A stretch of DNA of 64,000 bases. It comes from Hexactinellida sp. DTS-2022. Its lineage: Eukaryota > Porifera > Hexactinellida. Every line of letters begins with the position of its first letter. Positions within the stretch are counted from its first letter, which is position 1. Made by a program: the position numbers and the translations under genes. Below, piece after piece: positions 3,189 to 63,239 of the stretch. Where the stretch lies: the NCBI GenBank assembly GCA_028753945.1, contig JAPNXP010000003.1, positions 3,968,001 to 4,032,000 of the forward strand, read 5' to 3'. Under the pieces are notes generated by a model. The model was not told the DNA's origin. It did no database searches and worked only from the letters and a program-made list of their open reading frames with translations.

Positions 3189-3837
3189 ATAAAATTTAAT
3201 CGTCTGACGTAAGAGTATTTTAATATACTTAAGTAATATTTGGAAATTTAGTATATCAATGCAATGATGCGGGTAATTACATAAATGAACTTTGTTTGAT
3301 ATCTGCTTGGTTGACTCTCTACTAAGAAATAAGATAAAATTAACTATTGAAGTGTATAGAAAGCTTTGTAAAGTATTATCAGATCTGTAAACACGATTAA
3401 GGGAGGTCTTAAGAGAATATCAAAAAGAAGTCCGCAAAATAAGAGTGCGTAAAAACTAATAGTGCAGGTGTCTTTGTCATGGCGAGACAAAGGGTAGTTA
3501 ATTAATTTTTGTCATGTGAGTCAAACAAAAAACCCTGAAGGTACACATTTAATACATAAATAATATTAAAAATTAGTAATAATTTTCTAAATATATAAAT
3601 CGCTACAGTAAGATTAATTGTGCTACAATACGAAAAATAAAGTAAATGACATTCAAGTCTCAATCAATATTAAGAAAACCATAAGAGCTAGAAACTAGCT
3701 CTTTTTTGTAAATGATATCTAATCATTAAACTAAATAAATAACATTTACTAGAACCAATCGAATAATTCTAGAGGCCGGGAAAATTTAGCCTTAATCTCA
3801 TCTTACAAAACATTTTATAGCTAAATAATTCCGCTAT

Positions 3838-4095
3838 CAGGGCCGGGAATGAAAGGTTCACGAACGGATTGAATAAACTCAATTCAGTTCATCTCAAATT
3901 GATGCATGTTCAGTTTGTTCACCTTTACCTCCTAACTTCAATACCTGAGTGGGTGGTGGTTATTAGGTATGGCGAGCAGATGTGAGTAGTGATCTATTTT
4001 ATTTTACTTTTGTAGTGATGTATTTATATTTTGATGTATCTATATTTTATGTATTTATATTTCAATAAGTTCGTTCATGAACCTTTCATTCCCTG
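3838..4095. mobile_element. hAT MITE with near-perfect 8-bp target duplication
   Basis: The element begins CAGGGCCGGGAATGAAAGG and ends with the inverse CCTTTCATTCCCTG. The flanks are TCCGCTAT (3830-3837) and TCCACTAT (4096-4103), matching at 7 of 8 positions. The start CAGGG, end CCCTG and 8-bp duplication are hAT hallmarks. No coding capacity. Confidence 0.75.
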
Positions 4096-4427
4096 TCCAC
4101 TATTTATAAGCTAGGTCACGTTACACACGAAAGAGATTTGAAATAAAGGAATTTGGCATTATACAAACCTTGGGTACAGTAAAATTCGAATAAATTTTTT
4201 GTTTTTTGATTTTACACTTACTTTAAAACATTATAATAATAGAACAAAGCTAATGGAGTCTTTTGCTACGAATGACCCTGGGGACTCATAATAACAAATG
4301 CACAAATACATAATTTGGTCGCTAATGTTTGATCGACTAAAAAGTTATGAGTAACCAGAACATGACAGAAACACTAGTCTGGCCAACAGCTTTAACTATA
4401 AATCAATGAATACACTTACTAACTCAC

Positions 4428-5717
4428 CTCTGCATAGTCACAGCTCTGAGCAGCTACTAGTTCTACGGGCATCTCATTCAGGGCTCTCTCCGCCTCCTTC
4501 TGGTGCTGGATAGCCGGGACGGCGTCAGGAGCGTAGGTGCTCAGCTGGTCTATCAGCAGCTTGTTTGTAGCCTGTAGCTCCTTGTAGCGCTGGAGACGTC
4601 TGTCGTGCGACTTCCTAAGCTGGTCGGTTTCTATGCTCTTGCTCTCCAAAAGCTGAACAACAACCGTGGTCGAGTCGAGGGCCTGTGTCCCTGGGTTTGT
4701 CTGAGTGTAAGTTTCGTTGTGTTGCAGCTGGATTCTGTGTATTTTGGAACTCTCCAGTTCTTTCATATGTCCCTTGAGGTGTGATATTTCGCGTGCATCT
4801 TCTGATACCTTATTGCTTAGCATCTGGTTTAGAGAGTTAGCACGAGTCAGCTGTTCCTCTGTTTCCTTGAGATCAGACTGCAGACGATTACAAAGAGATC
4901 GGGTCTCGTTAGCACTCAGCTTGTGTCTCTCTCCCTCAGCAACGCACTCACTCAGTCTGCTACTTATATCCTCCGTGTCTCTCCGAGCCAACTCCAGGTC
5001 CCTCCCCTTCTGCTCCAGCTCTTCTCGCTTTGAGCTCAGCAGCTGATCGAGGCTACGGCTAGCCTCCACTCTATGATCGCATTCATCTCTAACTGCTCTC
5101 AGCTGCTGGCCGAACTCATTCAGCTTCTCCTGCACCTCTCTGCCTCTGGTCTCTGCCTGCACCGCGCGAGTCGACAGGCTCCTATTCTCCGCCGCGAGTT
5201 GGCGAGTCTTATCTGACATATCTGTCACTTGGCTCTTGAAAGCCAGCTCCTGAGCGCTGAGCTGCTGCTGTAGCACTTCTATCGCAGTCTCCATAGACCT
5301 GTGTTCCCTCTCCATCTCTTCGCAGCGAGCAGCCCTCTGGTTAGCAGCGCTCAGGGCACTCTGTAGAGCCGACAGCTCGTCGCACAGCTGCAGATTCTCA
5401 GACTGAGACAGTTTAAGTTTTTGACTCTCCTGCTCCAATCTACCGCTTAACTCCTGGGCTTCCTCGGACAGCTTGTTAAAATGAGTTTCTTTCTCCTGTC
5501 CATATGCCAGCAGCTGATCCAGTCTCTGCTGATGGCTGCTCTTCTCGCGGGCTACCACCATCTCTATAGCCGCGTTGAGATCAGGATTCGTTTTTTGAAG
5601 TTTCTTCCAAAGACCCCAAACAAACTCTTTGTCCGCCCTACACTTATCAAGCTCCTTCGTTATCCTCTGTAGCTCGTCACTTTGTTGTAGAATATGTGCT
5701 GCACTTGTTGGCTCCAT
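4428..5717 (-). CDS. CNTLN: Centlein, N-terminal coding exon
   Basis: This frame encodes about 430 residues of almost continuous coiled coil. Near its N-terminus (residues 28-47 counted from MEPTSA) it has ADKEFVWGLWKKLQKTNPDL followed by a VV-REK motif. From memory this closely matches the signature block at the start of vertebrate centlein. Centlein is a centriole/centrosome protein that helps link the paired centrioles, working with C-NAP1 and CEP68. I chose the ATG at 5717 (MEPTSA); another ATG 18 codons upstream would add a hydrophobic stretch with no coiled-coil character. The frame runs into GAG|GTGAGT at 4428/4427, a consensus splice donor, so the stop just beyond is intronic. Vertebrate centlein is about 1,400 residues; the remaining exons should lie at lower coordinates, but I see none in 1-4400. 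The exon is clearly richer in GC than its surroundings. Confidence 0.8.
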
Positions 5718-5771
5718 CCAGCTAGCATAATAATGAACTACTATTGAATTAGTAATTAGAACTGAGTTCAT

Positions 5772-7080
5772 TAATAGAACTTATGAAATGGATCATTGTG
5801 TTTTGTGGGTGAACTTTGTAGATTATTAAATTTTGAGTAAACTGTGTATAAATCAATTCTTATTAATTAACCACAAAGTTCTTAAAGGGGTTGGCTAGAC
5901 TGATCTTAATCCACCAGAATTCCCAATCACGAGAATACTTGCATATGATATGATTTGACTCTCTTAAATTTACCTTTATTTATTCAAAGGATTTCAAAAT
6001 TTCATTCTAATAATAAGGTGTGTTTCAGTAATTATGCCAACTACAAAGCAATATAACTAAACTTAACATTACAAGTATTTGTATTATATCAACACAGGTG
6101 ATCAATATACTAAAATATAAGATTTTGCTTGGCCGAAATAAAAAACTAAAAAACTATGAACTAGCTAACTAATTTACTAATAGTTACACTATTGCGGATA
6201 GGGACCGCATATTTTAATCAGTAGTGCATTGGTTTATTTGGTTTCTAACTATTTAATTAATGAAGGAATCAGGGTAATGGTATTGACAATCTGATTATTG
6301 ATCTACGTAATTATTATTATAGCCTGGTTGACCTGTCACGAAATATTCGGTCCGGCCGGACCAAAAACAACACGGACCGAATATTTCGTGACAGACCAAT
6401 TGAGTATATTTTGAGAATTGTTATTGTGCTTTAACTATACATATTATACTAGTGAATAGAAATTGTATATTCAACTTACAAAAAATATTGGAATATGTTA
6501 TAGTTCTAAGAAGATGATTTAATCATTTTCAGAAATGGATTGAAACAAAAGTATCTGAATTAAAGCATAAGTAAATTGTTATCGAGAATCTAAATCATAT
6601 TGTGGAAATAAGTTGTTGAGCAATAAATCAGCAATATTCTTACAAGGTCATGCATAAGAAGAGTACATTATTGTTTAAACATAACTATTTTCTACCACAA
6701 TACGTAAATTCCTATCTAATCGAAACAGGTGCAATTTATGTTAGCGAACAATAATTCCGCGTAGTAGAGATTGCACTGAAATACTATATTCAGTAGCAAT
6801 GTATAATACTAGCAGATTCGGTATATAGCCCTACCAAAAGTATTCTTACAAGATGTTTCTCTATTTAATCCAATTTATTGCACGGTAATCGATCTAAAAT
6901 CATGATAAATATTCCTGTAGCACAAATATTGGGTTAATAATATTATTTCTAAACTAACATACTTTACTAAGAACGTTGCCCACTGATTTACAAGAGCTCT
7001 CGCTTCTCAAAAATAGAGTACAGTGAGTTGACAAAATATTATTATTATTTTATTCAGGTTAAAAGTAAGTGTTCTTATCA
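5772..7080. other. AT-rich intergenic stretch upstream of centlein
   Basis: No coding frame, RNA gene or recognisable long element is seen, apart from the perfect hairpin at 6333-6394. The centlein promoter should lie in the first few hundred bases, but I see no distinctive core motif. Confidence 0.5.
6333..6394. mobile_element. Near-perfect hairpin, minimal copy of the CTGTCACGAAATATT family
   Basis: CTGTCACGAAATATTCGGTC is followed, after a short GGCCGGACC centre, by its inverse ending CGAATATTTCGTGACAG. The same termini bound the longer element at 37843-38447, so this is an end-to-end remnant of that family with nearly all of the interior deleted. Confidence 0.65.
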
Positions 7081-9113: not shown

Positions 9114-9165
9114 GGGGAGTACGACAACTCGCATCACGACAATTCGCAACTAATCTGATTGGTCA
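9114..9165 (+). mobile_element. Solitary Mutator-like terminal repeat
   Basis: GGGGAGTACGACAACTCGC followed by ATCACGACAA and then CTGATTGGTCAATT matches the ends of the complete Mutator-like element at 27907-33201. It is probably the left end of the element whose transposase remnant lies at 9726-10417. I find no matching right end. Confidence 0.55.
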
Positions 9166-9725: not shown

Positions 9726-10417
9726 CTAATTTAGCTTCTTGATGTAACAGTTTGATGAGTAGATACAGTTCACTTGTCGTCGTCGTGCCCTAGTGTTGAT
9801 TCTCATATGCCAACCTTCCACATCGTTATTTGTACGGACGGATTGGTTAGAAACAGACCAGTCACAGTCTCTTGGCTGCCATTGTCCAGTGATACACGTA
9901 TTCCCTATGTAAGTTGTCAATTCCTCTTCAACATTATTGCTAGAGACTTCTTGGATGTTTCTGAATGCCATTTCTATGTGTTCAGCTGGCAAAAAAGGTA
10001 GAGCCATTAACTTTCTATAAAAGTCATGCGTTGAACTATTGTTGATATACTGTTGCAGTAACCCTAAAAGTTGAATTTTCCTCCAGACTGCCTGGGTCCA
10101 ATGAAATGAGCATCCTTTAAGTTTAAGGTTTACATTTGGGTAAACTTTTGGAATGGCTTTCCATAAACCCGATTCAAAGTCAACAATTGCACGTCTGACA
10201 GGTAGCACTGCGGGAAGGGCTTTTAATACCTCAATTAGTACTCGTCTGTAGTCCCTTTAATGTTTCCTGACATTAGAACAAATGTTAATGGTAATTGCTT
10301 TACAGTGCTTTCAGATTTCACAAATGCGTAAATAGAAAATAATTGGACAAACGGTTCTTTAACAATTTTGAAGGTTCCATCTAAATACCATGTTTTTGCT
10401 GAACAAATCGACGCCAC
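9726..10417 (-). pseudogene. MULE (Mutator-like) transposase fragment, frameshifted
   Basis: Read on the minus strand from 10417, the first part contains WYLDGTFKIVKEPFVQLF (first catalytic Asp in LDGTF). The second part begins VLPVRRAIVDFESGL (second Asp in VDFE), continues with GCSFHWTQAVWRK, and later has NNDVEGWH (third acidic residue, Glu). These are the DDE elements of MULE transposases. The two parts are in different frames: the first meets TAA just after TDEY near 10237, while the next frame reads on as RRVLIEVLKALP into the second part, so a single-base indel broke the gene. The 5' edge may be a splice acceptor (AAGCAG near 10420). The sequence is distinct from the intact transposases at 28-32 kb, so it represents another lineage. 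Inactive. Confidence 0.8.
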
Positions 10418-14461: not shown

Positions 14462-15123
14462 ATTATTAAATCTCGATTGTTGTGTGTTTGTGTGTTTGTC
14501 CGGATTGTATTAAAGTGATGGGGGAATATAAACCGCATTTATATAGGAGATATAGACTAAGTTCCAAATGTTATATTGGGTAAACAAATGTTATAATAGG
14601 TAAACAAATGTTATAATCGGTAAACAAGTATGCCGAACACGAATTTCGCGTTTATAAATTTATAATGTGAATATTTGTTGTTGTTGTTTACACAAAATAG
14701 GTAAACAAATAAAATAAAATTCAAAATCAACCTAGAAGTTAGCTTCCAACGGGTATTATAGGTAAACAAGTATGCTGAACACGAATTTCGCATTTATAAA
14801 TTTATAATATGAAGATTTGTTGTTGTTGTTGCACAAAGTAGGTAAACAAATTAATGAAAATTCAAATCAACCTAGAAGTTAGCTTTCAACGGATATATAG
14901 GTTAACAAGTATGCTGAACACGAATTTCGCATTTATAAATTTACAATATGAATATTTGTTGTTGTTGTTGTTGTTTACACAAATTAATGAAAAATTCAAA
15001 ATTATAGCGTCCCTTTTACCATTTTCATGGTAGAAAATTTGAGGAGTAAGGCCGCACAGCGGCCGTTAACTTGAGGTGCGTAGCACCGATCTGTCGCAAA
15101 GCGACCGAGACCGAAGGGCTCGT
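14462..15123 (+). mobile_element. Helitron-like element with internal tandem repeats, array copy 3
   Basis: The 5' end TATTATTAAATCTCGATTG is followed by GTGT-rich sequence and TTTGTCCGGATT. The interior holds about three units of a roughly 140-bp tandem repeat (each with AGTATGCTGAACACGAATTT and a TTGTTGTTGTT run). The 3' end is the same CCGAGACCGAAGGGCTCGT as in copies 1 and 2. Confidence 0.6.
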
Positions 15124-15924
15124 ATATATATATTATTAAATCTCGATTGTTGTTTGTTTGTGTGTGTGTTTGTCCGGATTATATTAAAGTGATGGGGGAA
15201 TAGAAACAGCAATTAATATTGGGATATAAACTAACTTGCAAATGTTATAATAGGTAAACAAATGTTATAATAGGTAAACAAGTATGCTGAATTCGAATTT
15301 CGCGTTTATAAATTTATAATATTAACATTTGTTGTTGTTGTTTACACAAAATAGATAAACAAATTAATGAAAATTCAAAATCAACCTAGAAGTGAGCTTT
15401 CAACGAATATTATAGGTAAACAAGTTAGCTGAACACGATTTTCGCGGTTAAAATTTCTAATATGAATATTTGTTGTGGTTGTTTACACAAAATAGGTAAA
15501 CAAATTAATGAAAATTCAAAATCAACCTAGAAGTTAGCTTTCAACGGGTATTGTATGCTGAACACGAATTTCGCGTTATATTTTCTAATATGAATATTTG
15601 TTGTTGTTGTTTACTCAAAATAGCCAAACAATTTAATGAAAATTCAAAATCAAAAGAGAAGTTAGCTTTCAATGGGTATTATAAGTAAACAAGTGTGCTG
15701 AACACGAATTTCGCATTTATACAATTCTAATATGAGTATTTGTTGTTGTTGTTGTTGTTTACACAAATAGGTAAACAAATTAATCAAAATCAAAATCATA
15801 ACGTCCCTTTCTACGATTTCCATGGTAGAAAATGTGAGGAGTAAGGCCGCATAGGCATAGCGGCCGTTAACTTGAGGTGCGTAGCACCGATCTGTCGCAA
15901 AGCGACCGAGACCGAAGGGCTCGT
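15124..15924 (+). mobile_element. Helitron-like element with internal tandem repeats, array copy 4
   Basis: Same termini as copy 3, with about four internal tandem units. It ends at GGGCTCGT and is followed by a short (TA)n tract that separates it from the inverted copy 5. Confidence 0.6.
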
Positions 15925-15959
15925 ATATATATATATATATATATTTGCATATATATAAT

Positions 15960-17276
15960 ACGAGCCCTTCGGTCTCGGTCGCTTTGCGACAGATCGGTGC
16001 TACGCACCTCAAGTTAACGGCCGCTGTGCGGCCTTACTCCTCACATTTTCTACCATAGAAATGGTAGAAAGGGACGTTATGTTTTAGAATTTTCATAAAT
16101 TTGTTTACCTATTTGTGTAAACAACAACAACAACAAATACTCATATTATAATTTTATAAATGCGAAATTCGTGTTCAGCACACTTGTTTACTTATAATAC
16201 CCATTGAAAGCTAACTTCTAGGTTGATTTTGAATTTTCATTAATTTGTTTAGCTATTTTGTGTAAACAACAACAACAAATATTCATATTATAAATTTATA
16301 AACGCGAAAATCGTGTTCAGCATACTTGTTTACCTATAATACTCGTTGAAAGCTAACTTCTAGGTTGATTCTGAATTTTCATTAATTTGTTTACCTATTT
16401 TGTGTAAACAACAACAACAAATATTCATATTATAAATTTTTAACCGCGAAAATCGTGTTCAGCATACTTGTTTACCTATAATACCCGTTGAAAGCTAACT
16501 TCTAGGTTGATTTTGAATTTTCATTAATTTGTTTACCTATTTTGTGTAAACAACAACAACAAATATTCATATTATAAATTTTGACCGCGAAAATCGTGTT
16601 CAGCATACTTGTTTACCTATAATACTCGTTGAAAGCTAACTTCTAGGTTGATTCTGAATTTTCATTAATTTGTTTACCTATTTTGTGTAAACAACAACAA
16701 CAAATATTCATATTATAAATTTTTAACCGCGAAAATCGTGTTCAGCATACTTGTTTACCTATAATACCCGTTGAAAGCTAACTTCTAGGTTGATTTTGAA
16801 TTTTCATTAATTTGTTTACCTATTTTGTGTAAACAACAACAACAAATATTCATATTATAAATTTTTGACCGCGAAAATCGTGTTCAGCATACTTGTTTAC
16901 TTATAATACCCGTTGAAAGCTAACTTCTAGGTTGATTTTGAATTTTCATTAATTTGTTTACCTATTTTGTGTAAACAACAACAACAAATATTAATATTAT
17001 AAATTTTTAACCGCGAAAATCGTGTTCAGCATACTTGTTTACCTATAATACCCGTTGGAAGCTAACTTCTAGGTTGATTTTGAATTTTATTTTATTTGTT
17101 TACCTATTTTGTGTAAACAACAACAACAACAAATATTAATATGATAAATTTATAAACGCGAAATTCGTGTTCAGCATACTTGTTTACCTATTATAACATT
17201 TGGAACTTAGTCTCTATCTCAATAATAAATGCGGTTTCTAGTCCCCCATCACTTTAATACAATCCGGACAAACAAA

Positions 17277-27897: not shown

Positions 27898-27913
27898 GCA
27901 ATAAATGGAAGTC

Positions 27914-28018
27914 CGACAACTCGCATCACGACAACTGGCAACGGACAACTCGCATCACCGACAACTGGCATCACGACAACTGGCATCACGACAACTGGCA
28001 TCACGACAACTCGCATCT
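27914..28018. repeat. Subterminal tandem repeats, left arm
   Basis: About seven tandem units of the type ACAACT(C/G)GCATCACG lie directly inside the transposon end. Such subterminal arrays often bind transposase; here that is inference. Confidence 0.75.
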
Positions 28019-28269
28019 AATTTGATTGGTCAATTTAATTACATTAACTTTACATTAACTTAATTATCAAAAAGTTATTTAATATAATAAATTTAATTGA
28101 ATCAAATTAATTGACAGAAATATTAAACTGCAGAGCCCCCTAAGAAATAATTTATAATTCTATTTATAAAAGATTAAATCATTGTTTCTACTGATCAAAG
28201 TCCTAAATACTGACAGATGATTTTCTAATTTCGGGAAAGTAATTTTAATTTCAGAAAACAAATACTTAC

Positions 28270-28403
28270 ACCTTTATTGTTCCTATATCGTAATCGTCGG
28301 AACTTTTATCTTCTTCAACAGGATGCAAGCCACCTGTTCCAACTATTTGCCGTAATTCGTATAAAATAGATCCTGGCCAAATTGTATCAATTTCTTTATT
28401 TCT
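28270..28403 (-). other. Candidate antisense exon in the left arm
   Basis: This is the mirror copy of the frame at 32615-32748. On the minus strand it reads IDTIWPGSILYELRQIVG and ends in an acidic EEDKSSDDYD segment at a GTAAGT donor. It is nearly identical to the other arm, so its conservation is not independent evidence. It could be part of an accessory transposon gene. Confidence 0.3.
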
Positions 28404-28446
28404 TTAATAAATTTCTATTTTTTTATTTTGAGGTAACTTTTTTTTT

Positions 28447-29877
28447 ATGGCCCAACCTGATCAGCCGTTCCGGCTGATCAGGTCTCAGCGAGGTGCTGAG
28501 AAGTTGACAGAGGGGGGGTTTAGTTATGGGAAGCAGAGGAGAGTAGGAGGGATAACGCATTGGCTTTGTGAAAGGAGAGGATTATGTAAAGCGCTCATAC
28601 ATACCCAAGGCACGGAGATTGTGAAGCGGACGAATGAGCATCTCCATGCACCTGACGAGCAGGCTGTGAGTTGCTGTGAAGTGAAGGTAGGGATGAAGAG
28701 GAAAGCGAGGGACTCCCAAGATAGCTCGCACCATATAGTGGGCGATTGTCTTCAGACGGTAACCGAGGGCACTGCTGCTAAACTCCCAAAGCTGGACAGC
28801 CTCAAGCGCACCATACAGCGCCAGCGAGTGCGACAGCAAGCAGCCCAAGTGCAACCCGCCACTCTGGAGCAGCTAACTCTACCGGAAGAGTACAAGCGGT
28901 CTTCCAAAGGCGAGCAGTTCCTCCTGTACGACTCGGGTCCGGAGTCTCAGAGGATCCTCATCTTCGGAACTCAGCGGAACCTGGAGATGCTGCAGCTGTC
29001 CAGTGTCTGGTTGGCAGACGGCACTTTCAAGACAGCTCCTTCACTCTTCACGCAGGTCTACGTGATACACGCACTGCGCGGAGGTCCTGACCTGATGCAG
29101 GACGGTCACCTGTTGCCAAGTCTATTCGTGCTCCTGCCCAACAAGACCGAGGCTACGTACACGAGAATGTGGGAACAGGTCCAGCTACTGTGTCCGCAAG
29201 CAGACCCCGCCAAGATGCTGATGGACTTTGAGTTGGCAGCAATTAACAGCTTTGAGCGAACGTGGCCTAGTGCTGTGGTGAAGGGCTGCTTCTTTCACCT
29301 CACCCAGAACCTGTGGCGCAAGGTACAGGCTGCCGGACTGCAGACTGAGTACTGCCAGGACCAGGAGCTCGCTATGCGCATCCGGCTGATACCAGCTCTG
29401 GCGTTTGCTGCTCCCCACGAAGTGCCCGCCCTGTTGAATGAAGTGGCAGCGCAGCTTCCCTCGCCCGCAGCAGACAGTCTCATTGAGTACTTCGAGAGGA
29501 CCTATGTCGGACGGACACTCCCAGGTGGCACGTACCAACAGCCACTGTTCCCTGTAGCGATGTGGAGCCACCACTTCGACACGGTTTTCTGTCTACCTCG
29601 TACAACCAACGCAGTAGAAGCTTGGCATCGCAGCTTCAACGCGACAGTAGGGTGTCATCATCCCAACATATGGAAGTTCATCTCTGCACTCAAGCGCGAG
29701 CAGGGTCTGGTCGAACTCAGGCAGGCCAAGTACATCGCTGGAGCTCGACCCACCAAGCGCAAGGCTGCGCAAGCTAATGAGCTGGCTTTGAGGGATCTGG
29801 TCAGGAGCTATCTGCATCGCCCCCGAATGGAATTCTTAAGAGGTGTCGCACACCGCTTTAGCATCGGCACTGACTGA
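28447..29877 (+). CDS. FLYWCH/MULE transposase, left copy
   Basis: A 476-residue intact DDE transposase. Residues 25-67 form a FLYWCH-type zinc finger (HW at 38-39, C41, C47, then a HLHAP end at 65-69), which would bind the transposon ends. A basic linker (about 83-130) follows. The MULE domain gives the catalytic acids: D191 in WLADGTF, D260 in LMDFELA, and E391 in TTNAVEAWH; GCFFHLTQNLWRK between the second and third is the family's C-x2-H-like motif. The frame uses a true ATG after an A/T-rich leader and has no stops or frameshifts. Its GC content is far above the flanks. It is identical to the right copy up to about residue 448, then differs (RDLVRSYLHRPRMEFLRG here). It is likely active or recently active, and acts on its own termini. 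Confidence 0.9.
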   Translation: MAQPDQPFRLIRSQRGAEKLTEGGFSYGKQRRVGGITHWLCERRGLCKALIHTQGTEIVKRTNEHLHAPDEQAVSCCEVKVGMKRKARDSQDSSHHIVGDCLQTVTEGTAAKLPKLDSLKRTIQRQRVRQQAAQVQPATLEQLTLPEEYKRSSKGEQFLLYDSGPESQRILIFGTQRNLEMLQLSSVWLADGTFKTAPSLFTQVYVIHALRGGPDLMQDGHLLPSLFVLLPNKTEATYTRMWEQVQLLCPQADPAKMLMDFELAAINSFERTWPSAVVKGCFFHLTQNLWRKVQAAGLQTEYCQDQELAMRIRLIPALAFAAPHEVPALLNEVAAQLPSPAADSLIEYFERTYVGRTLPGGTYQQPLFPVAMWSHHFDTVFCLPRTTNAVEAWHRSFNATVGCHHPNIWKFISALKREQGLVELRQAKYIAGARPTKRKAAQANELALRDLVRSYLHRPRMEFLRGVAHRFSIGTD

Positions 29878-29929
29878 TTACCTCTTATTATGGTGAGTAT
29901 GTTATTACATTATTAACTAAGCTGTTTAC

Positions 29930-30066
29930 TACAGTCGAACCTCGTTAGTACGAACACCAGAGATGCCAAAATCTGTTCGCCTTGTCTGTAATTAATTATA
30001 TCTTAATTGTATGGAAACGGCTATCAAGGGAACGAAATAATGTTCGTGTTAACCTGTTCTACTGTA
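29930..30066. mobile_element. pogo-type MITE in the transposon core
   Basis: TACAGTCGAACCTCGTTAGT at the left and an imperfect inverse ending CCTGTTCTACTGTA at the right, each with a TA. The same family occurs at 34001-34142. Confidence 0.7.
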
Positions 30067-30149
30067 CATTAATTCTTGCGTATAACGCATAATTTCATGG
30101 CTGATAGGAACCTGTTAACAGTTCATTTTAGACAAAATATTTAAGGATT

Positions 30150-30495
30150 AGCTTGTGTAGCCAGCCATTGGAGTGAAATTTGTTGCATAGAAATAGAAAA
30201 GTGTTCTATTTTAATGCATAATTGCTGCATCGTGTATGGTCGGCTTAAGTTAATCTTTTTGTTATTAACAATATTTTAATCTATATTTGAGTATTTTAAC
30301 TGACGTCCGTATAGCCCACCATACACGATGCAACTTTGTTGCATCCCACTGTTGCACGCAACGAAGTTGCATGCAACAAGGTAATATATAGGTGCAACAC
30401 AATTTTCATGCATAAATATTGCGCAACAATCACCATACACGGTGTAACTTTGTTGTATGCAACATTTCAAACATCGTGTATGTTGGGCTTATGGT
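30150..30495. mobile_element. Cluster of small MITEs with GCCCACCATACACGATG ends
   Basis: The sequence CACCATACACGATGCAAC or its inverse occurs four times (near 30225, 30311, 30430 and 30471), bounding at least one element of about 180 bp (30311-30493). GTTGCATGCAAC-type palindromes are internal. A similar end occurs at 38756-38829. Confidence 0.55.
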
Positions 30496-30499
30496 TATC

Positions 30500-31188
30500 A
30501 CATAAAAAACTATATAGTTTGCCTGCTTTTGCTTAGCCTTAGTTGTTGGTAGCTGTAAACAGCAGTTGGTGTTACGAGCTCACACATAAGACTGAAAATA
30601 TCAAATTAAAGGTTAATTATTTTATCCATGTCGGGGGAAAATATTTAACATTAATATAGTATATGTTAGCTGTTATAATAAATCTATAATTTAAATTATT
30701 AATGACACCAATATATTTGTTTGTCCGGACTGTAACAAAGTGTAGGGTTCTATTACAGACTAAATTTTAAATGTTATTTGTAATTAGAATAAAAGTACGT
30801 AGTAGGCTAAGTAGGAAGTTATTGTTGAATATTAGCAAATAAGATACCGAAGTACGTATGCTGTTTTTGTTAACTTTAAATAAGTAAGAAAATTGAGTCC
30901 TTATAGTAGTCGGGCGATTTATCGAGAAGCTACCTAGAATTAAGTGCTCATAAATCTTCTGTAAGAAAGATTATACTTTTGGTAATACGTGAAGCAGCCT
31001 CACGTATTACGTACACAGTTAACACTCTCTATTATATACACCTCAGGGACCAGAGTTATTGTTCATTATGTCGAGGTGTTCATAGCCAGTGTACACTATA
31101 AGGGATTCGATTGTAATAAGGTTATTACATTATACATGTATTACGCAACTTAACTTCCTCTATTAATATTGTTGCAATTCTTAAGGTT
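30500..31188. other. Core of the Mutator-like element, no gene seen
   Basis: This is AT-rich, with a short Helitron 5'-like fragment near 30712 (TATATTTGTTTGTCCGGAC). A possible palindrome (AATACGTGAAGC with CACGTATTACG) lies near 30985. No coding frame. Confidence 0.4.
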
Positions 31189-32571
31189 TCATGACGGGGC
31201 GATGTAGAAAAGCCTGGCCAGATTCACCAGAGCCAGCTCATTAGCTTGCGCAGCCTTGCGCTTGGTGGGTCGAGCTCCAGCGATGTACTTGGCCTGCCTG
31301 AGTTCGACCAGACCCTGCTCGCGCTTGAGTGCAGAGATGAACTTCCATATGTTGGGATGATGACACCCTACTGTCGCGTTGAAGCTGCGATGCCAAGCTT
31401 CTACTGCGTTGGTTGTACGAGGTAGACAGAAAACCGTGTCGAAGTGGTGGCTCCACATCGCTACAGGGAACAGTGGCTGTTGGTACGTGCCACCTGGGAG
31501 TGTCCGTCCGACATAGGTCCTCTCGAAGTACTCAATGAGACTGTCTGCTGCGGGCGAGGGAAGCTGCGCTGCCACTTCATTCAACAGGGCGGGCACTTCG
31601 TGGGGAGCAGCAAACGCCAGAGCTGGTATCAGCCGGATGCGCATAGCGAGCTCCTGGTCCTGGCAGTACTCAGTCTGCAGTCCGGCAGCCTGTACCTTGC
31701 GCCACAGGTTCTGGGTGAGGTGAAAGAAGCAGCCCTTCACCACAGCACTAGGCCACGTTCGCTCAAAGCTGTTAATTGCTGCCAACTCAAAGTCCATCAG
31801 CATCTTGGCGGGGTCTGCTTGCGGACACAGTAGCTGGACCTGTTCCCACATTCTCGTGTACGTAGCCTCGGTCTTGTTGGGCAGGAGCACGAATAGACTT
31901 GGCAACAGGTGACCGTCCTGCATCAGGTCAGGACCTCCGCGCAGTGCGTGTATCACGTAGACCTGCGTGAAGAGTGAAGGAGCTGTCTTGAAAGTGCCGT
32001 CTGCCAACCAGACACTGGACAGCTGCAGCATCTCCAGGTTCCGCTGAGTTCCGAAGATGAGGATCCTCTGAGACTCCGGACCCGAGTCGTACAGGAGGAA
32101 CTGCTCGCCTTTGGAAGACCGCTTGTACTCTTCCGGTAGAGTTAGCTGCTCCAGAGTGGCGGGTTGCACTTGGGCTGCTTGCTGTCGCACTCGCTGGCGC
32201 TGTATGGTGCGCTTGAGGCTGTCCAGCTTTGGGAGTTTAGCAGCAGTGCCCTCGGTTACCGTCTGAAGACAATCGCCCACTATATGGTGCGAGCTATCTT
32301 GGGAGTCCCTCGCTTTCCTCTTCATCCCTACCTTCACTTCACAGCAACTCACAGCCTGCTCGTCAGGTGCATGGAGATGCTCATTCGTCCGCTTCACAAT
32401 CTCCGTGCCTTGGGTATGTATGAGCGCTTTACATAATCCTCTCCTTTCACAAAGCCAATGCGTTATCCCTCCTACTCTCCTCTGCTTCCCATAACTAAAC
32501 CCCCCCTCTGTCAACTTCTCAGCACCTCGCTGAGACCTGATCAGCCGGAACGGCTGATCAGGTTGGGCCAT
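31189..32571 (-). CDS. FLYWCH/MULE transposase, right copy
   Basis: A 460-residue frame in inverted orientation to the left copy and identical to it through residue 448: same FLYWCH finger, same catalytic D191, D260 and E391. The last 12 residues (VNLARLFYIAPS) differ and end the protein 16 residues earlier than the left copy. Alignment of the nucleotides shows that the difference is substitution-type divergence (about 70 percent identity) rather than an insertion, so the two genes were separate before most of their length was homogenised. The start ATG at 32571 is in the same leader context. It is probably functional, unless the C-terminus matters. Several apparent frames on the opposite strand are by-products. 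Confidence 0.9.
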   Translation of the reverse strand: MAQPDQPFRLIRSQRGAEKLTEGGFSYGKQRRVGGITHWLCERRGLCKALIHTQGTEIVKRTNEHLHAPDEQAVSCCEVKVGMKRKARDSQDSSHHIVGDCLQTVTEGTAAKLPKLDSLKRTIQRQRVRQQAAQVQPATLEQLTLPEEYKRSSKGEQFLLYDSGPESQRILIFGTQRNLEMLQLSSVWLADGTFKTAPSLFTQVYVIHALRGGPDLMQDGHLLPSLFVLLPNKTEATYTRMWEQVQLLCPQADPAKMLMDFELAAINSFERTWPSAVVKGCFFHLTQNLWRKVQAAGLQTEYCQDQELAMRIRLIPALAFAAPHEVPALLNEVAAQLPSPAADSLIEYFERTYVGRTLPGGTYQQPLFPVAMWSHHFDTVFCLPRTTNAVEAWHRSFNATVGCHHPNIWKFISALKREQGLVELRQAKYIAGARPTKRKAAQANELALVNLARLFYIAPS

Positions 32572-32614
32572 AAAAAAAAAGTTACCTCAAAATAAAAAAA
32601 TAGAAATTTATTAA

Positions 32615-32748
32615 AGAAATAAAGAAATTGATACAATTTGGCCAGGATCTATTTTATACGAATTACGGCAAATAGTTGGAACAGGTGGCTTGCATCCTGT
32701 TGAAGAAGATAAAAGTTCCGACGATTACGATATAGGAACAATAAAGGT
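32615..32748 (+). other. Candidate antisense exon in the right arm
   Basis: Upstream of and divergent from the transposase, an open stretch reads IDTIWPGSILYELRQIVG and then an acidic EEDKSSDDYD segment, and meets GTAAGT at 32749. There is no ATG in the open part, so it would need an upstream exon. It may be a remnant of a second transposon gene; evidence is weak. Confidence 0.3.
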
Positions 32749-33000
32749 GTAAGTATTTGTTTTCTGAAATTAAAATTACTTTCCAGAAATTAGAAAATCA
32801 TCTGTCAGTATTTAGGACTTTGATCAGTAGAAACAATGATTTAATCTTTTATAAATAGAATTATAAATTATTTCTTAGGGGGCTCTGCAGTTTAATATTT
32901 CTGTCAATTAATTTGATTCAATTAAATTTATTATATTAAATAACTTTTTGATAATTAAGTTAATGTAAAGTTAATGTAATTAAATTGACCAATCAAATTA

Positions 33001-33195
33001 GATGCGAGTTGTCGTGATGCGAGTTGTCGTGATGCGAGTTGTCGTGATGCCAGTTGTCGTGATGCCAGTTGTCGGTGATGCGAGTTGTCCGTTGCCAGTT
33101 GTCGTGATGCGAGTTGTCGTGATGCCAGTTGTCGGTGATGCGAGTTGTCCGTTGCCAGTTGTCGTGATGCGAGTTGTCGTGATGCGAGTTGTCGG
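33001..33195. repeat. Subterminal tandem repeats, right arm
   Basis: About 13 units of GATGC(G/C)AGTTGTCGT, the inverse of the left array but with more copies. Within it a block of about 63 bp is itself duplicated. Open frames on both strands here are products of the repeat. Confidence 0.8.
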
Positions 33196-33781
33196 TATCC
33201 GGCAATAAATATGTTAGCATTCATAATCCACTGATTTGTATCAAGTATTGAAGTACGTTCAATGGTTGGTAGTATGATACTGCACTATAATGGAATATGC
33301 GGGAGCATTACAATTACTCAACATGTGGAATTCCGCTTGGACATGCCATGCCTGTGGACAAGAAGAGATCTAATGATCGATCGGAATAAACTGAGTCAAT
33401 AATGCACCACTGTATGGCGTGTTGGTGATATAGTACAGTTTACCACACAAAGGGAGACAAATATAATTTCAGACAGCACTCGTATGCGCATAGATCTGTT
33501 CAAGTGTAGATTGCTTTCCGAAGAAAATTTGGTTTTAAAACAATTCTACATTTCATCCATATTCTTTAAAATTAGTGTGAAAACCATAACAGCTCTAATT
33601 GTCAAATATGCATACTTCTCAACATATCCTAGTTAGGGATTCTAACCCAAGATTTTGGGATTGAACAGGGTTAATATATTTTGAATTTACTAGTATATCA
33701 TGTAGGAATACTTTATTGTTAGACTAAATATATTTGGATGACAAATCTTTTAATAATGTGTTAGTAGCATATAGCATAGAG

Positions 33782-39619: not shown

Positions 39620-40303
39620 CTAAGCTGATTTGAATGACCGCATTAGTTCGTTGGTTTGGTTGATGAGTCTGTTGGCGCTCTCAAACACACGGTCAGCTCG
39701 CCCGTCCTTGAAATACGCCTTCAGAGTATCTGAAAAACTCTTGGAGTGTTTTATGAAAATCTTTTTGTTCTGGTCGATATGTCGCTTCGTCCCGTGTATG
39801 TTAGTTAGCATGGGGTACTTCCTACAGGTGTCATTAACCGCGTCTAGCACGTCCTTAATGGCGGCTGCGATGTCCTTGATTGTCTGCAGGAACCTGGACC
39901 TGTCCTGTATCTGCTCGGGAATGCGACTGAGGGTCGTCCGCAGGGCTTTCGAGCGCTGGTTCAGATAGCGGAACTCGGCTTCTGTGCGCGTGAGTATAAA
40001 CTCCGGACAGTCAATGGAGGCCAGCTTTAGAAGAATCTCTGAAATGTTATTATTTAGAGATTCGGCTTCCAGGATGCACTCAATGAAGCTCTGAGTGATC
40101 CCGGTGTTCTCCTTCTCAGCGCTGCAGAAAGCGGTGCGCAGGGTCTGAATGGCGGAGAGGTTCTTCTCGCCCTGCGACTCCAGCTCCTCGAAGAGAGGCA
40201 GCATCACCACGTGCAGCGCCAGCGCCAGCTGCTGCTTCTCCTCCGGCGGGGGGGGCGTGGCTATCTCCATCTGATAGTATGGTTTGTTATTAACTCTATT
40301 CAT
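39620..40303 (-). CDS. PDCD10: PDCD10 / CCM3, complete and intronless
   Basis: About 227 residues from the ATG at 40303. The frame is open three codons further only through a TTG. The N-terminal half has NLSAIQTLRTAF and AEKENTG, and the C-terminal half has RFLQTIKDIAAAIKDVLDAV, KHSKSFSDTLKAYFKDG and SANRLINQTNELM; these match vertebrate PDCD10 closely as I remember it. PDCD10 dimerises through its N-terminal helices, binds GCKIII kinases (MST4, STK24/25) and links them to striatin-PP2A (STRIPAK) and to CCM2/KRIT1. Its C-terminal four-helix domain resembles the FAK FAT domain; the Lys residues of that surface (KHSKSF, YFKDGR) are present. Usual length is about 212, so this has a short N-terminal extension (a second Met follows YYQ) with a PPPP tract. 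Vertebrate PDCD10 has many introns; this copy has none, with no disabling changes. Confidence 0.95.
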   Translation of the reverse strand: MNRVNNKPYYQMEIATPPPPEEKQQLALALHVVMLPLFEELESQGEKNLSAIQTLRTAFCSAEKENTGITQSFIECILEAESLNNNISEILLKLASIDCPEFILTRTEAEFRYLNQRSKALRTTLSRIPEQIQDRSRFLQTIKDIAAAIKDVLDAVNDTCRKYPMLTNIHGTKRHIDQNKKIFIKHSKSFSDTLKAYFKDGRADRVFESANRLINQTNELMRSFKSA

Positions 40304-40493
40304 TGTACTCAATTCAAATCAAGCCACAGTAGCTATTAGGTTGCCAATAGCAATTCGAGTTTTCCACAGTTCAACCTCGATTATCAGAACATGATTGACG
40401 GTCCCAACAAGTTCGAATAATATAGGTTGCAACGTAAATACCAGTGTGTAACGAAGGAGCCGGGGGCCCCCTCGGCGATCTAAAGGATGGGGG

Positions 40494-51242: not shown

Positions 51243-51895
51243 TCAACCAGCAAAGGCCCTATCCCTGCCACCAGCATAGGCCCTAGCCCTACTATCAACA
51301 CAAGCCCTAACACTGCCACCAATACAAGCCATAACCGTTGCCATCAACACAAGCCCTAACACTGCCACCAATACAAGCCATAACGCTGCCACCAACACAA
51401 GCCCTAGCCCTGCCAATACAAGCCCTAACGCTGCCATCAACACAAGCCCTAACGCTGCCATCAACACAAGCCCTAACACTGCCACCAATACAAGCCCTAA
51501 CACTGCCACCAATACAAGCCATAACGCTGCCATCAACACAAGCCCTAGCCCTGCCAATACAAGCCCTAACGCTGCCATCAACACAAGCCCTAACGCTGCC
51601 ATCAACACAAGCCCTAACACTGCCACCAATACAAGCCATAACGCTGCCACCAACACAAGCCCTAGCCCTGCCAATACAAGCCCTAACGCTGCCATCAACA
51701 CAAGCCCTAACGCTGCCATCAACACAAGCCCTAACGCTGCCATCAATACAAGCCCTAACGCTGCCATGCCACCAACCAAGCCCTAACGCTGCCACCAACA
51801 CAAGCCCTAACGCTGCCATCAATACAAATCCTAACGCTGCCATCAATACAAGCCCTAAGGCTGCCACCAATACAGGCCCTAGCGCTGCCACCAAT
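51243..51895. repeat. 24-bp minisatellite with higher-order structure
   Basis: The unit AACACAAGCCCTAACGCTGC + CATC is repeated about 27 times with CAC/CAT and AAC/AAT variants. A shortened unit (CCTAGCCCTGCCAATACAAG) appears at about 51404, 51545 and 51661, giving higher-order blocks of about 141 and 117 bp. Because 24 is divisible by three, long frames are open on both strands. Confidence 0.9.
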
Positions 51896-62397: not shown

Positions 62398-63239
62398 ACG
62401 AGCCCTTCGGTCTCGGTCGCTTTGCAACAGATCGGTGCTACGCACCTCAAGTTAACGGCCGCTGTGCGGCCTTACTCCTCACACTTTCTACCATGGAAAT
62501 GGTAGAAAGGGACGTTATGATTTTGAATTTTCATTAATTTGTTTACCTATTTGTGTAAACAACAACAACAACAACAAATACTCATATTATAATTTTATAA
62601 ATGCGAAATTCGTGTTCAGCACACTTTTTTACTTATAATACCCGTTGAAAGCTAACTTCTAGGTTGATTTTGAATTTTCATTAATTTGTTTACCTATTTT
62701 GTGTAAACAACAACAACAAATATTAATATGAGAAATTTTTAAACGCGAAATTCGTGTTCAGCACCTTGTTTACCTATAATATCCGTTGAAAGCTTACTTC
62801 TAGGTTGATTTTGAATTTTCATTAATTTGTTTACCTATTTTGTGTAAACAACAACAACAAATATTCATATTAGAAAATTTTAAACGCGAAAATCGTGTTC
62901 AGCATACTTGTTTACCTATAATACCCGGTGAAAGCTAACTTCTAGGTTGATTTTGAATTTTCATTAATTTGTTTACCGATTTTGTGTAAACAACAACAAC
63001 AAATATTCATATGAGAAATTTGTAAATTCGAAAATCGTGTTCAGCATACTTGTTTACCTATTATAACAATTGTTTAAATAATATAACATTTGGAAGTTAG
63101 TTTCTATCAAAATTATAAATGCGGTTTCTTATCCCCCATCACTTTAATACAATCCGGACAAACAAACAAACACACACACACACACCACACACACACACAC
63201 ACACACAAACAAACAACAATCGAGATTTAATAATATAGA
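62398..63239 (-). mobile_element. Helitron-like element with internal tandem repeats
   Basis: Same family and orientation as 15960-17350, with about four units of the 140-bp repeat and an (AC)n tract at about 63171-63208. The left boundary is ACGAGCCCTTCGG and the right is CGAGATTTAATAATATAGA. Confidence 0.65.

Follow-up and report, generated by a model that had tools for sequence, protein, structure and literature searches.

How does one transposon come to carry two transposase genes that face each other, and what keeps them alike? The question is raised by an element of 5295 bp at 27907-33201 of a 64,000-nucleotide stretch of contig JAPNXP010000003.1 of Hexactinellida sp. DTS-2022, the whole of which is called the window below. 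A preliminary description had read the element as a single Mutator-like insertion with matching ends and two intact, inverted transposase genes. We consider it likely that the element belongs to a two-gene inverted-repeat family of Mutator-like elements (MULEs) whose catalytic regions are kept identical by arm-to-arm conversion, and that the window copy is an extreme product of that process.

The window element

A perfect 9-bp duplication abuts both sides of the element. Copies of GCAATAAAT lie at 27898-27906 and 33202-33210, each touching one element end, and agree at 9/9 positions; the same 9-mer occurs five times on the plus strand of the whole window, two of these being the copies that adjoin the element ends. 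The inverted arms, 27959-29805 and 31213-33059, are each 1847 nt long and match at 1839/1847 positions (99.6% identity), with eight mismatches at 27982, 27997, 28233, 29788, 29791, 29792, 29794 and 29801. Within them two genes converge, one at 28447-29877 (plus strand, 476 amino acids) and one at 31189-32571 (minus strand, 460 amino acids), and both score above the Pfam cut-offs for the FLYWCH finger (PF04500) and the MULE transposase domain (PF10551; 37.6 and 37.7 bits against a cut-off of 27.6). In the left gene the finger occupies residues 11-67 of 476. Residues D191, D260 and E391 of the 476-residue protein are invariant across nine aligned transposases and, by alignment position against Muta1 of Aedes aegypti (FLYWCH at 24-92; D214, D283 and E419 of 504 amino acids, as given in the passages of PMC5225508), form a putative DDE-type catalytic triad.

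One element with two convergent FLYWCH and MULE genes is thereby confirmed. The earlier claims of a single insertion with its own 9-bp duplication and of near-identical inverted arms stand, as do the Mutator-like identity, through the MULE domain, the 9-bp duplication and the terminal inverted repeats, and the likeness to Foldback elements, through long inverted arms with ends made of short (15-bp) tandem units. Two further claims stand in part. Both genes do encode FLYWCH and MULE domains, but the proteins agree over only about their first 448 residues, after which the C-termini diverge, so that the arms hold unequal transposases. Both ends do carry 15-bp arrays, but the copy numbers are unequal (6.9 copies at 27914-28017, 12.9 copies at 33001-33194) and the outermost bases of the element differ, being GGAAGTCC at the left and CGGATACC at the right. 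The features are listed here; A-type and B-type refer to the two sides of the usual pair in the family, described in the next section, and L009 and L010 are two other insertions.

27898..27906, no strand: left target-site duplication, GCAATAAAT
27907..28017, plus strand: left terminal repeat, with end GGAAGTCC and 15-bp tandem units from 27914
27959..29805, plus strand: left inverted arm, 1847 nt
28018..28446, plus strand: A-type 5' region of the left gene, by alignment to the A side of L009 and L010
28447..29877, plus strand: left gene, 476 amino acids, FLYWCH and MULE, A-type C-terminus
28456..28482, plus strand: short inverted repeat CCTGATCAGCCG-TTC-CGGCTGATCAGG within the opening codons of the left gene, with its mirror at 32536-32562
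29878..31188, no strand: spacer between the stop codons, 1311 nt, common to L009 and L010
31189..32571, minus strand: right gene, 460 amino acids, FLYWCH and MULE, A-type start, B-type C-terminus
31213..33059, minus strand: right inverted arm, 1847 nt
32572..33000, minus strand: 5' region of the right gene, A-type; its place is taken in L009 and L010 by a B-type 5' region with a hairpin
33001..33201, minus strand: right terminal repeat, 15-bp tandem units and end CGGATACC
33202..33210, no strand: right target-site duplication, GCAATAAAT

Within the spacer, short inverted and direct repeats surround CATACACGATG at 30214-30490, and the alignment to L010 is interrupted over 30345-30430; these repeats are possibly a small nested element. 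A 15-bp unit resembling the terminal repeat of the element also occurs at 9122.

A family of convergent pairs

We searched the 112.4-Mb assembly (18 contigs) with the left gene as DNA, finding at least 58 matches (40 of 152 first-look candidates scored), and with its protein, finding at least 93 (89 of 2361 scored), and retrieved 20, then 6, then 4 stretches for comparison. Many of the DNA matches are convergent pairs. A convergent pair in inverted arms occurs in 12 insertions on nine contigs, namely the window copy and L009, L010, L017, L019, L020, L021, L022, L023, L024, L027 and L028. The mirror-image pair that had been singled out as unusual is therefore real but no lone oddity: the layout recurs through the family, and the usual pair is asymmetric, its two sides differing in 10 of the 12 insertions.

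Gene A has a full-length start about 0.5-0.6 kb from its element end and encodes FLYWCH and MULE domains. Gene B matches gene A only from about nt 88 on and has a 5' region of its own before that point; in L023 the match begins at about nt 468, following a deletion of about nt 88-468. The B-type 5' region varies in length: L009 and L010 have about 0.7 kb of it, L017 and L019-L024 about 1.6-3.3 kb, and L028 about 4.5 kb, provided that the listed end is L028's own. The C-terminus of gene B is distinct from that of gene A except in L022 and L023, where the two are exchanged, and in L024, where the B end is deleted. The A genes of L009, L019 and L021 score above the Pfam cut-offs for both domains. 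Among four B genes given to Pfam all four have the MULE domain and none has FLYWCH above cut-off, with the B frames of L009 and L017 entered from their first ATG, inside or beyond the finger. Part of the finger of the L009 gene B is still readable upstream of that ATG. A stop breaks the B start region in L010, L017, L024 and L028.

The insertions form two subfamilies, A and B, which differ by about 24% (their coding cores are about 75% alike), and insertions within one subfamily differ by 0.6-4%. Beyond the 12, L033 (arms of 299 nt, 90% alike), L034 (567 nt, 96%) and L038 (329 nt, 91%) have the appearance of older, partly deleted pairs. L035-L037 have one gene match each, at 51-66% protein identity, and L016 and L026, whose ends were not found, enter our trees as single genes. 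L011-L015, L018 and L025 were searched for arms, no long convergent pair was seen, and they are left out of the counts.

The genome also holds compact single-gene relatives with terminal repeats (L029-L032). L029 and L030 are 99.8% identical, and L029, L030 and L032 are complete elements with duplications of their own, read by eye; none was seen for L031. Such relatives, which the preliminary description had suggested looking for, lend some colour to the idea that the window locus is merely two single-gene MULEs inserted side by side in opposite orientation. Against it, the window copy has one outer duplication, a search of the window for the 15-bp terminal-repeat unit found none between the arms, and the spacer is common to L009 and L010. 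The single-gene relatives have other ends, GGGATACC-like on both sides in L029, L030 and L032 and GGAATACC in L031, and only 68-71% identity to the window gene in the core. Complete single elements side by side, each with its own duplications, were looked for and not seen. With no inner terminal repeats bearing duplications found and the spacer shared, we reject side-by-side insertion, whose chance we put close to nil.

Both ends are available for 11 elements, and in ten of these one end is of the CGGATACC type and the other of the GGAAGTCC type, L009 carrying CGCATACC as its CGGATACC-type end. A search of the whole genome listed 40 exact matches to the first end pattern and 29 to the second; within 12 kb, 12 pairs of them face each other (11 mixed, one alike), leaving 45 of the 69 ends unpaired. 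The end on the gene A side is of the CGGATACC type in L009, L010, L017, L023 and L024 and of the other type in L019, L021 and L022. The same 11 elements (L028 is excluded, its far end lying beyond the retrieved stretch) have six exact 9/9 duplications, two matching at 7/9 and three with none (at most 4/9), against a maximum of 6/9 among 110 mismatched flank pairs used as a control.

A hairpin, GGTGCAGCTACC ... GGTAGCTGCACC, usually sits just upstream of gene B. It occurs at 10 sites in the genome, against 0 for the backward control, and all 10 adjoin a gene match: seven are in dual elements (L009, L010, L019, L020, L021, L022 and L024), one is in L038 and two are at places outside the retrieved stretches. 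L017 retains half of it, and in L028 the halves lie 556 nt apart; it is absent from L023, L027 and the window copy. Over 58 bp around the hairpin L009 is 85-88% like five subfamily-B elements, whereas the coding cores are only about as alike as stated above for the two subfamilies.

Searches beyond this genome, with a single scan of each collection, gave 68 pattern matches in viral_contigs and 79 in genome_contigs, none of them a relative, in collections where records near the window's genome may be absent. A profile search of solved structures matched solely the FLYWCH finger of FLYWCH1 (2rpr). At 50-52% protein identity there is a separate MULE group in this genome, listed at 12 places, 10 of them without stops, and mostly in a frame of about 580 codons; it is possibly another recently active family. 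Within the window, a 176-codon open frame at 9726-10256 (minus strand) looks by eye like a MULE transposase fragment, without a Pfam match at 0.001.

Concerted evolution of the two arms

In all 11 elements compared between A and B, a tract of about 1.1 kb is 99.0-100% identical between the arms (blocks of nt 200-1300). Over nt 180-1230 of ten elements, 74 element-unique states are present in both arms and only eight sites differ between arms; L023, whose gene B lacks about nt 88-468, and L027, whose left arm is internally deleted, are excluded from this count. The tract starts at nt 110-173 in nine of the 11, with no such edge in the window copy and a deletion there in L023. It ends at nt 1334-1342 in nine of the 11, extending to 1390 in L022, while L024 is deleted from 1242. 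Isolated arm differences lie further inside the tract in L017, L019, L023, L024 and L028.

Outside the tract, in the right flank of subfamily B, genes A and B of one element are 68.4% identical, while B genes of different elements are 94.2% identical to each other and A genes 97.1%. In a tree of the flanks (five subfamily-B elements and two single-gene relatives) the five B genes form one clade with support 100/99.9; in the tract the same clade is rejected, with a log-likelihood 235 lower and p = 4.7e-13 in the approximately unbiased (AU) test, in which two sets of identical rows were left free. The tract therefore evolves in concert within each element, and arm-to-arm gene conversion is presumably the process behind its identity. 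In L027 and L028 the reading frame is broken at matching positions of the two arms, so the arms stay alike without a working frame. The exchanged C-termini of L022 and L023 imply that the middle was inverted, as crossovers between arms would give.

Arms could also be identical simply by being young, if each element had made a fresh inverted duplication of its own gene through aborted gap repair or template switching. Arms that are alike within elements and different between them would be expected from this, and the arms of the window copy and L027 do extend into the terminal repeats. Yet gene B begins near nt 88 of gene A, with its own 5' side, in both subfamilies; the B C-terminal flanks are common across insertions (94.2% and 98.3%), where the identity of A to B within one element is 68-70%; full support is found for the clade of B genes in the flanks; and the sequence around the hairpin is conserved between subfamilies in five 58-bp matches. 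A fresh duplication in each copy is thus disfavoured by these comparisons, and we give it little chance.

Near-perfect palindromes are a known difficulty for assemblers and polishers, and a gene might have been copied into an inverted arm, or diverged arms equalised by short-read correction. The two arms are, however, unlike at each of their edges, the terminal arrays and the outermost bases differ as well, and the layout recurs at the 12 loci on nine contigs, with exact target duplications in 6/11 and element-specific differences in both arms. An artefact is an unlikely source of the arms, and its chance seems to us slight.

Several observations count against the arm-to-arm conversion and the single family of pairs that we favour. 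Consensus polishing of near-identical arms may have contributed to the 100% figures, and steady chromosomal conversion and homogenisation at each transposition fit the data alike. The left flanks are less clear: in subfamily B the identities are 69.2% (A-B within elements), 72.1% (B-B) and 87.5% (A-A), and in subfamily A 91.8%, 86.6% and 96.8%, A-B exceeding B-B there because the window copy and L009 are wholly or partly A-type in this region. L020 has two CGGATACC-type ends, and L020, L022 and L027 are the three elements that have no duplication; recombination between copies could account for the latter, by analogy with chimeric copies of Galileo. In a protein tree with outgroups, one clade of all dual elements was rejected (AU p = 0.0018, for a grouping picked after the first tree); with no dual clade set apart from the single-gene relatives, a single origin of the layout is not established.

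Age of the pair and possible recent function

In the DNA tree the single genes L016, L029 and L030 join subfamily A (100/99), while L031 and L032 join subfamily B (100/99). Since both subfamilies have the hairpin, a shared block that begins near nt 88 and both types of end, the pair may be old, with losses in the single-gene lineages, or lineages may have exchanged the B side.

The ratio of non-synonymous to synonymous substitution rates (dN/dS) is 0.03-0.07 among three subfamily-A copies (2-3 non-synonymous and 13-18 synonymous differences), 0.28-0.35 in four subfamily-B pairs and 0.14 between the window copy and L019. Such values would fit recent function of the catalytic region, weaker in subfamily B; they do not distinguish the two genes, which have the tract in common.

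The window copy as a probable extreme product

The right 5' region of the window copy can be aligned to the A side of L009 and L010 but not to their common B-type 5' region; no B-type 5' region is left in the window copy. L009 and L010 lie on different contigs and have the B-type side in common, which makes a derived window form the simplest reading. The build of L027 is similar, with arms at 3206-4621 and 5247-6662 that are 99.93% identical and A-type starts on both sides; its flanks match at only 4/9 and show no duplication.

The usual element runs from one end through a 5' region, gene A and a spacer to the inverted gene B and the other end. Gene A has a FLYWCH finger and a putative DDE-type catalytic domain, and gene B the same catalytic region with its own 5' region and C-terminus. 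In the mechanism that we propose, gene conversion between arms would keep the two catalytic regions identical as inverted repeats, and crossovers between arms or terminal repeats would at times flip the middle or the ends. Conversion would normally halt at the borders beyond which A and B have diverged, around nt 110-173 and nt 1334-1342 in the numbering of gene A. In the window copy such a conversion, or a break repair for which the other arm served as template, would have extended through the 5' region into the tandem repeats, turning a B-type 5' region into an A-type one and leaving a near-perfect palindrome with two FLYWCH genes. Gene A is presumably the working transposase, and conversion probably ran from A to B.

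The arrangement also bears on transcripts, which the preliminary description had expected to form inverted repeats that could trigger silencing of the family. Five subfamily-B elements were scanned (L017, L019, L021, L022 and L024); only 9-17 nt separate their two stops, and no poly(A)-type hexamer (AATAAA or ATTAAA) appears within the 1,472 nt that follow either stop. By this crude measure a subfamily-B transcript would run through the other gene and fold back, although the absence of hexamers is unsurprising in GC-rich coding DNA. In the window copy and in L009 and L010 the spacer itself holds the first hexamers, at a distance of 618-728 nt from gene A and of 908 nt from gene B (62 nt in L010); since those of the window copy come before the other arm, a hairpin transcript is not obligatory there. 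Among the single-gene relatives the first hexamer lies within 111 nt in L029-L031 and at 706 nt in L032. A bolder proposal, which we hold to be rather doubtful, is that the inverted pair is an evolved device, in which gene A would give the full transposase and gene B a FLYWCH-less partner or regulator sharing its catalytic domain, conversion would act as a proofreading that preserves this domain and a hairpin from read-through of the convergent genes would tune the family; the window copy would then be a regulator turned back into a second full transposase.

Other features of the window

A PDCD10-like gene at 39620-40318 (minus strand), with both Pfam domains above cut-off, suggests that the host is an animal or a near relative of animals. 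Tandem arrays with a repeat unit of about 140 bp, some oppositely oriented, occupy 14612-17195 and 62518-63065. At 51256-51894 a 24-bp unit is repeated about 27 times, and several frames are open there.

Comparison with known elements

The mudrA and mudrB genes of maize MuDR converge. MuDR and the fungal Mutyl are two-gene MULEs, the second open reading frame of Mutyl (MutB) being antisense, but in the passages of PMC6446971 the second gene (mudrB, MutB) is not described as a transposase copy. In animal MULEs of the Phantom/Muta type a FLYWCH finger precedes a MULE domain of the DDE type (a putative assignment in the window genes), and the duplications of 9 bp (8-10 bp) and the terminal inverted repeats are as here (passages of PMC5225508 and PMC6446971); the N-terminal finger that characterises them is found in both window genes (PF04500). 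Phantom has "1 or 2" open reading frames, and a second, inverted transposase copy was not found in the passages of PMC6446971. Tm1, a Mutator/Foldback element of root-knot nematodes, shares composite Foldback-like terminal repeats, 9-bp duplications and a FLYWCH and MULE protein of 496 amino acids, but its autonomous element has one transposase gene, according to the parts of PMC3169594 consulted.

Mu killer of maize is likewise an inverted duplication of MULE transposase sequence with terminal repeats, and its proposed hairpin RNA silences MuDR; in the passages of PMC3440606 it is a partial duplication at a locus and a silencer, while the elements described here make up a family that is dispersed and has open frames. 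Galileo is a member of the P superfamily, in which the copies with the longest repeats are reported never to be the nearly complete ones (portions of PMC3573991), whereas here the arms contain the transposase. Conversion likewise keeps the inverted arms of sex-chromosome palindromes similar, but these are large, chromosomal and not mobile (excerpts of PMC7023750 and PMC9636151). In the open-licence literature, from which many papers are absent, we found no MULE with two inverted transposase genes, and searches of it for conversion in transposon palindromes and for links between Foldback and Mutator elements found no such element.

Cut-and-paste transposons usually have one transposase gene, and their copies decay independently. 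What we describe is an unusual layout of a known kind of transposon, family-wide in this genome, in which each dual insertion examined has the catalytic region twice, kept alike apparently by copying between arms, a process that can repair damage but also spreads it. If this is confirmed, about a dozen palindromes in one small genome would be a natural system for the study of gene conversion in short palindromes, and would raise the question of how a transposon tolerates an arrangement that in maize, as Mu killer, silences a whole family.

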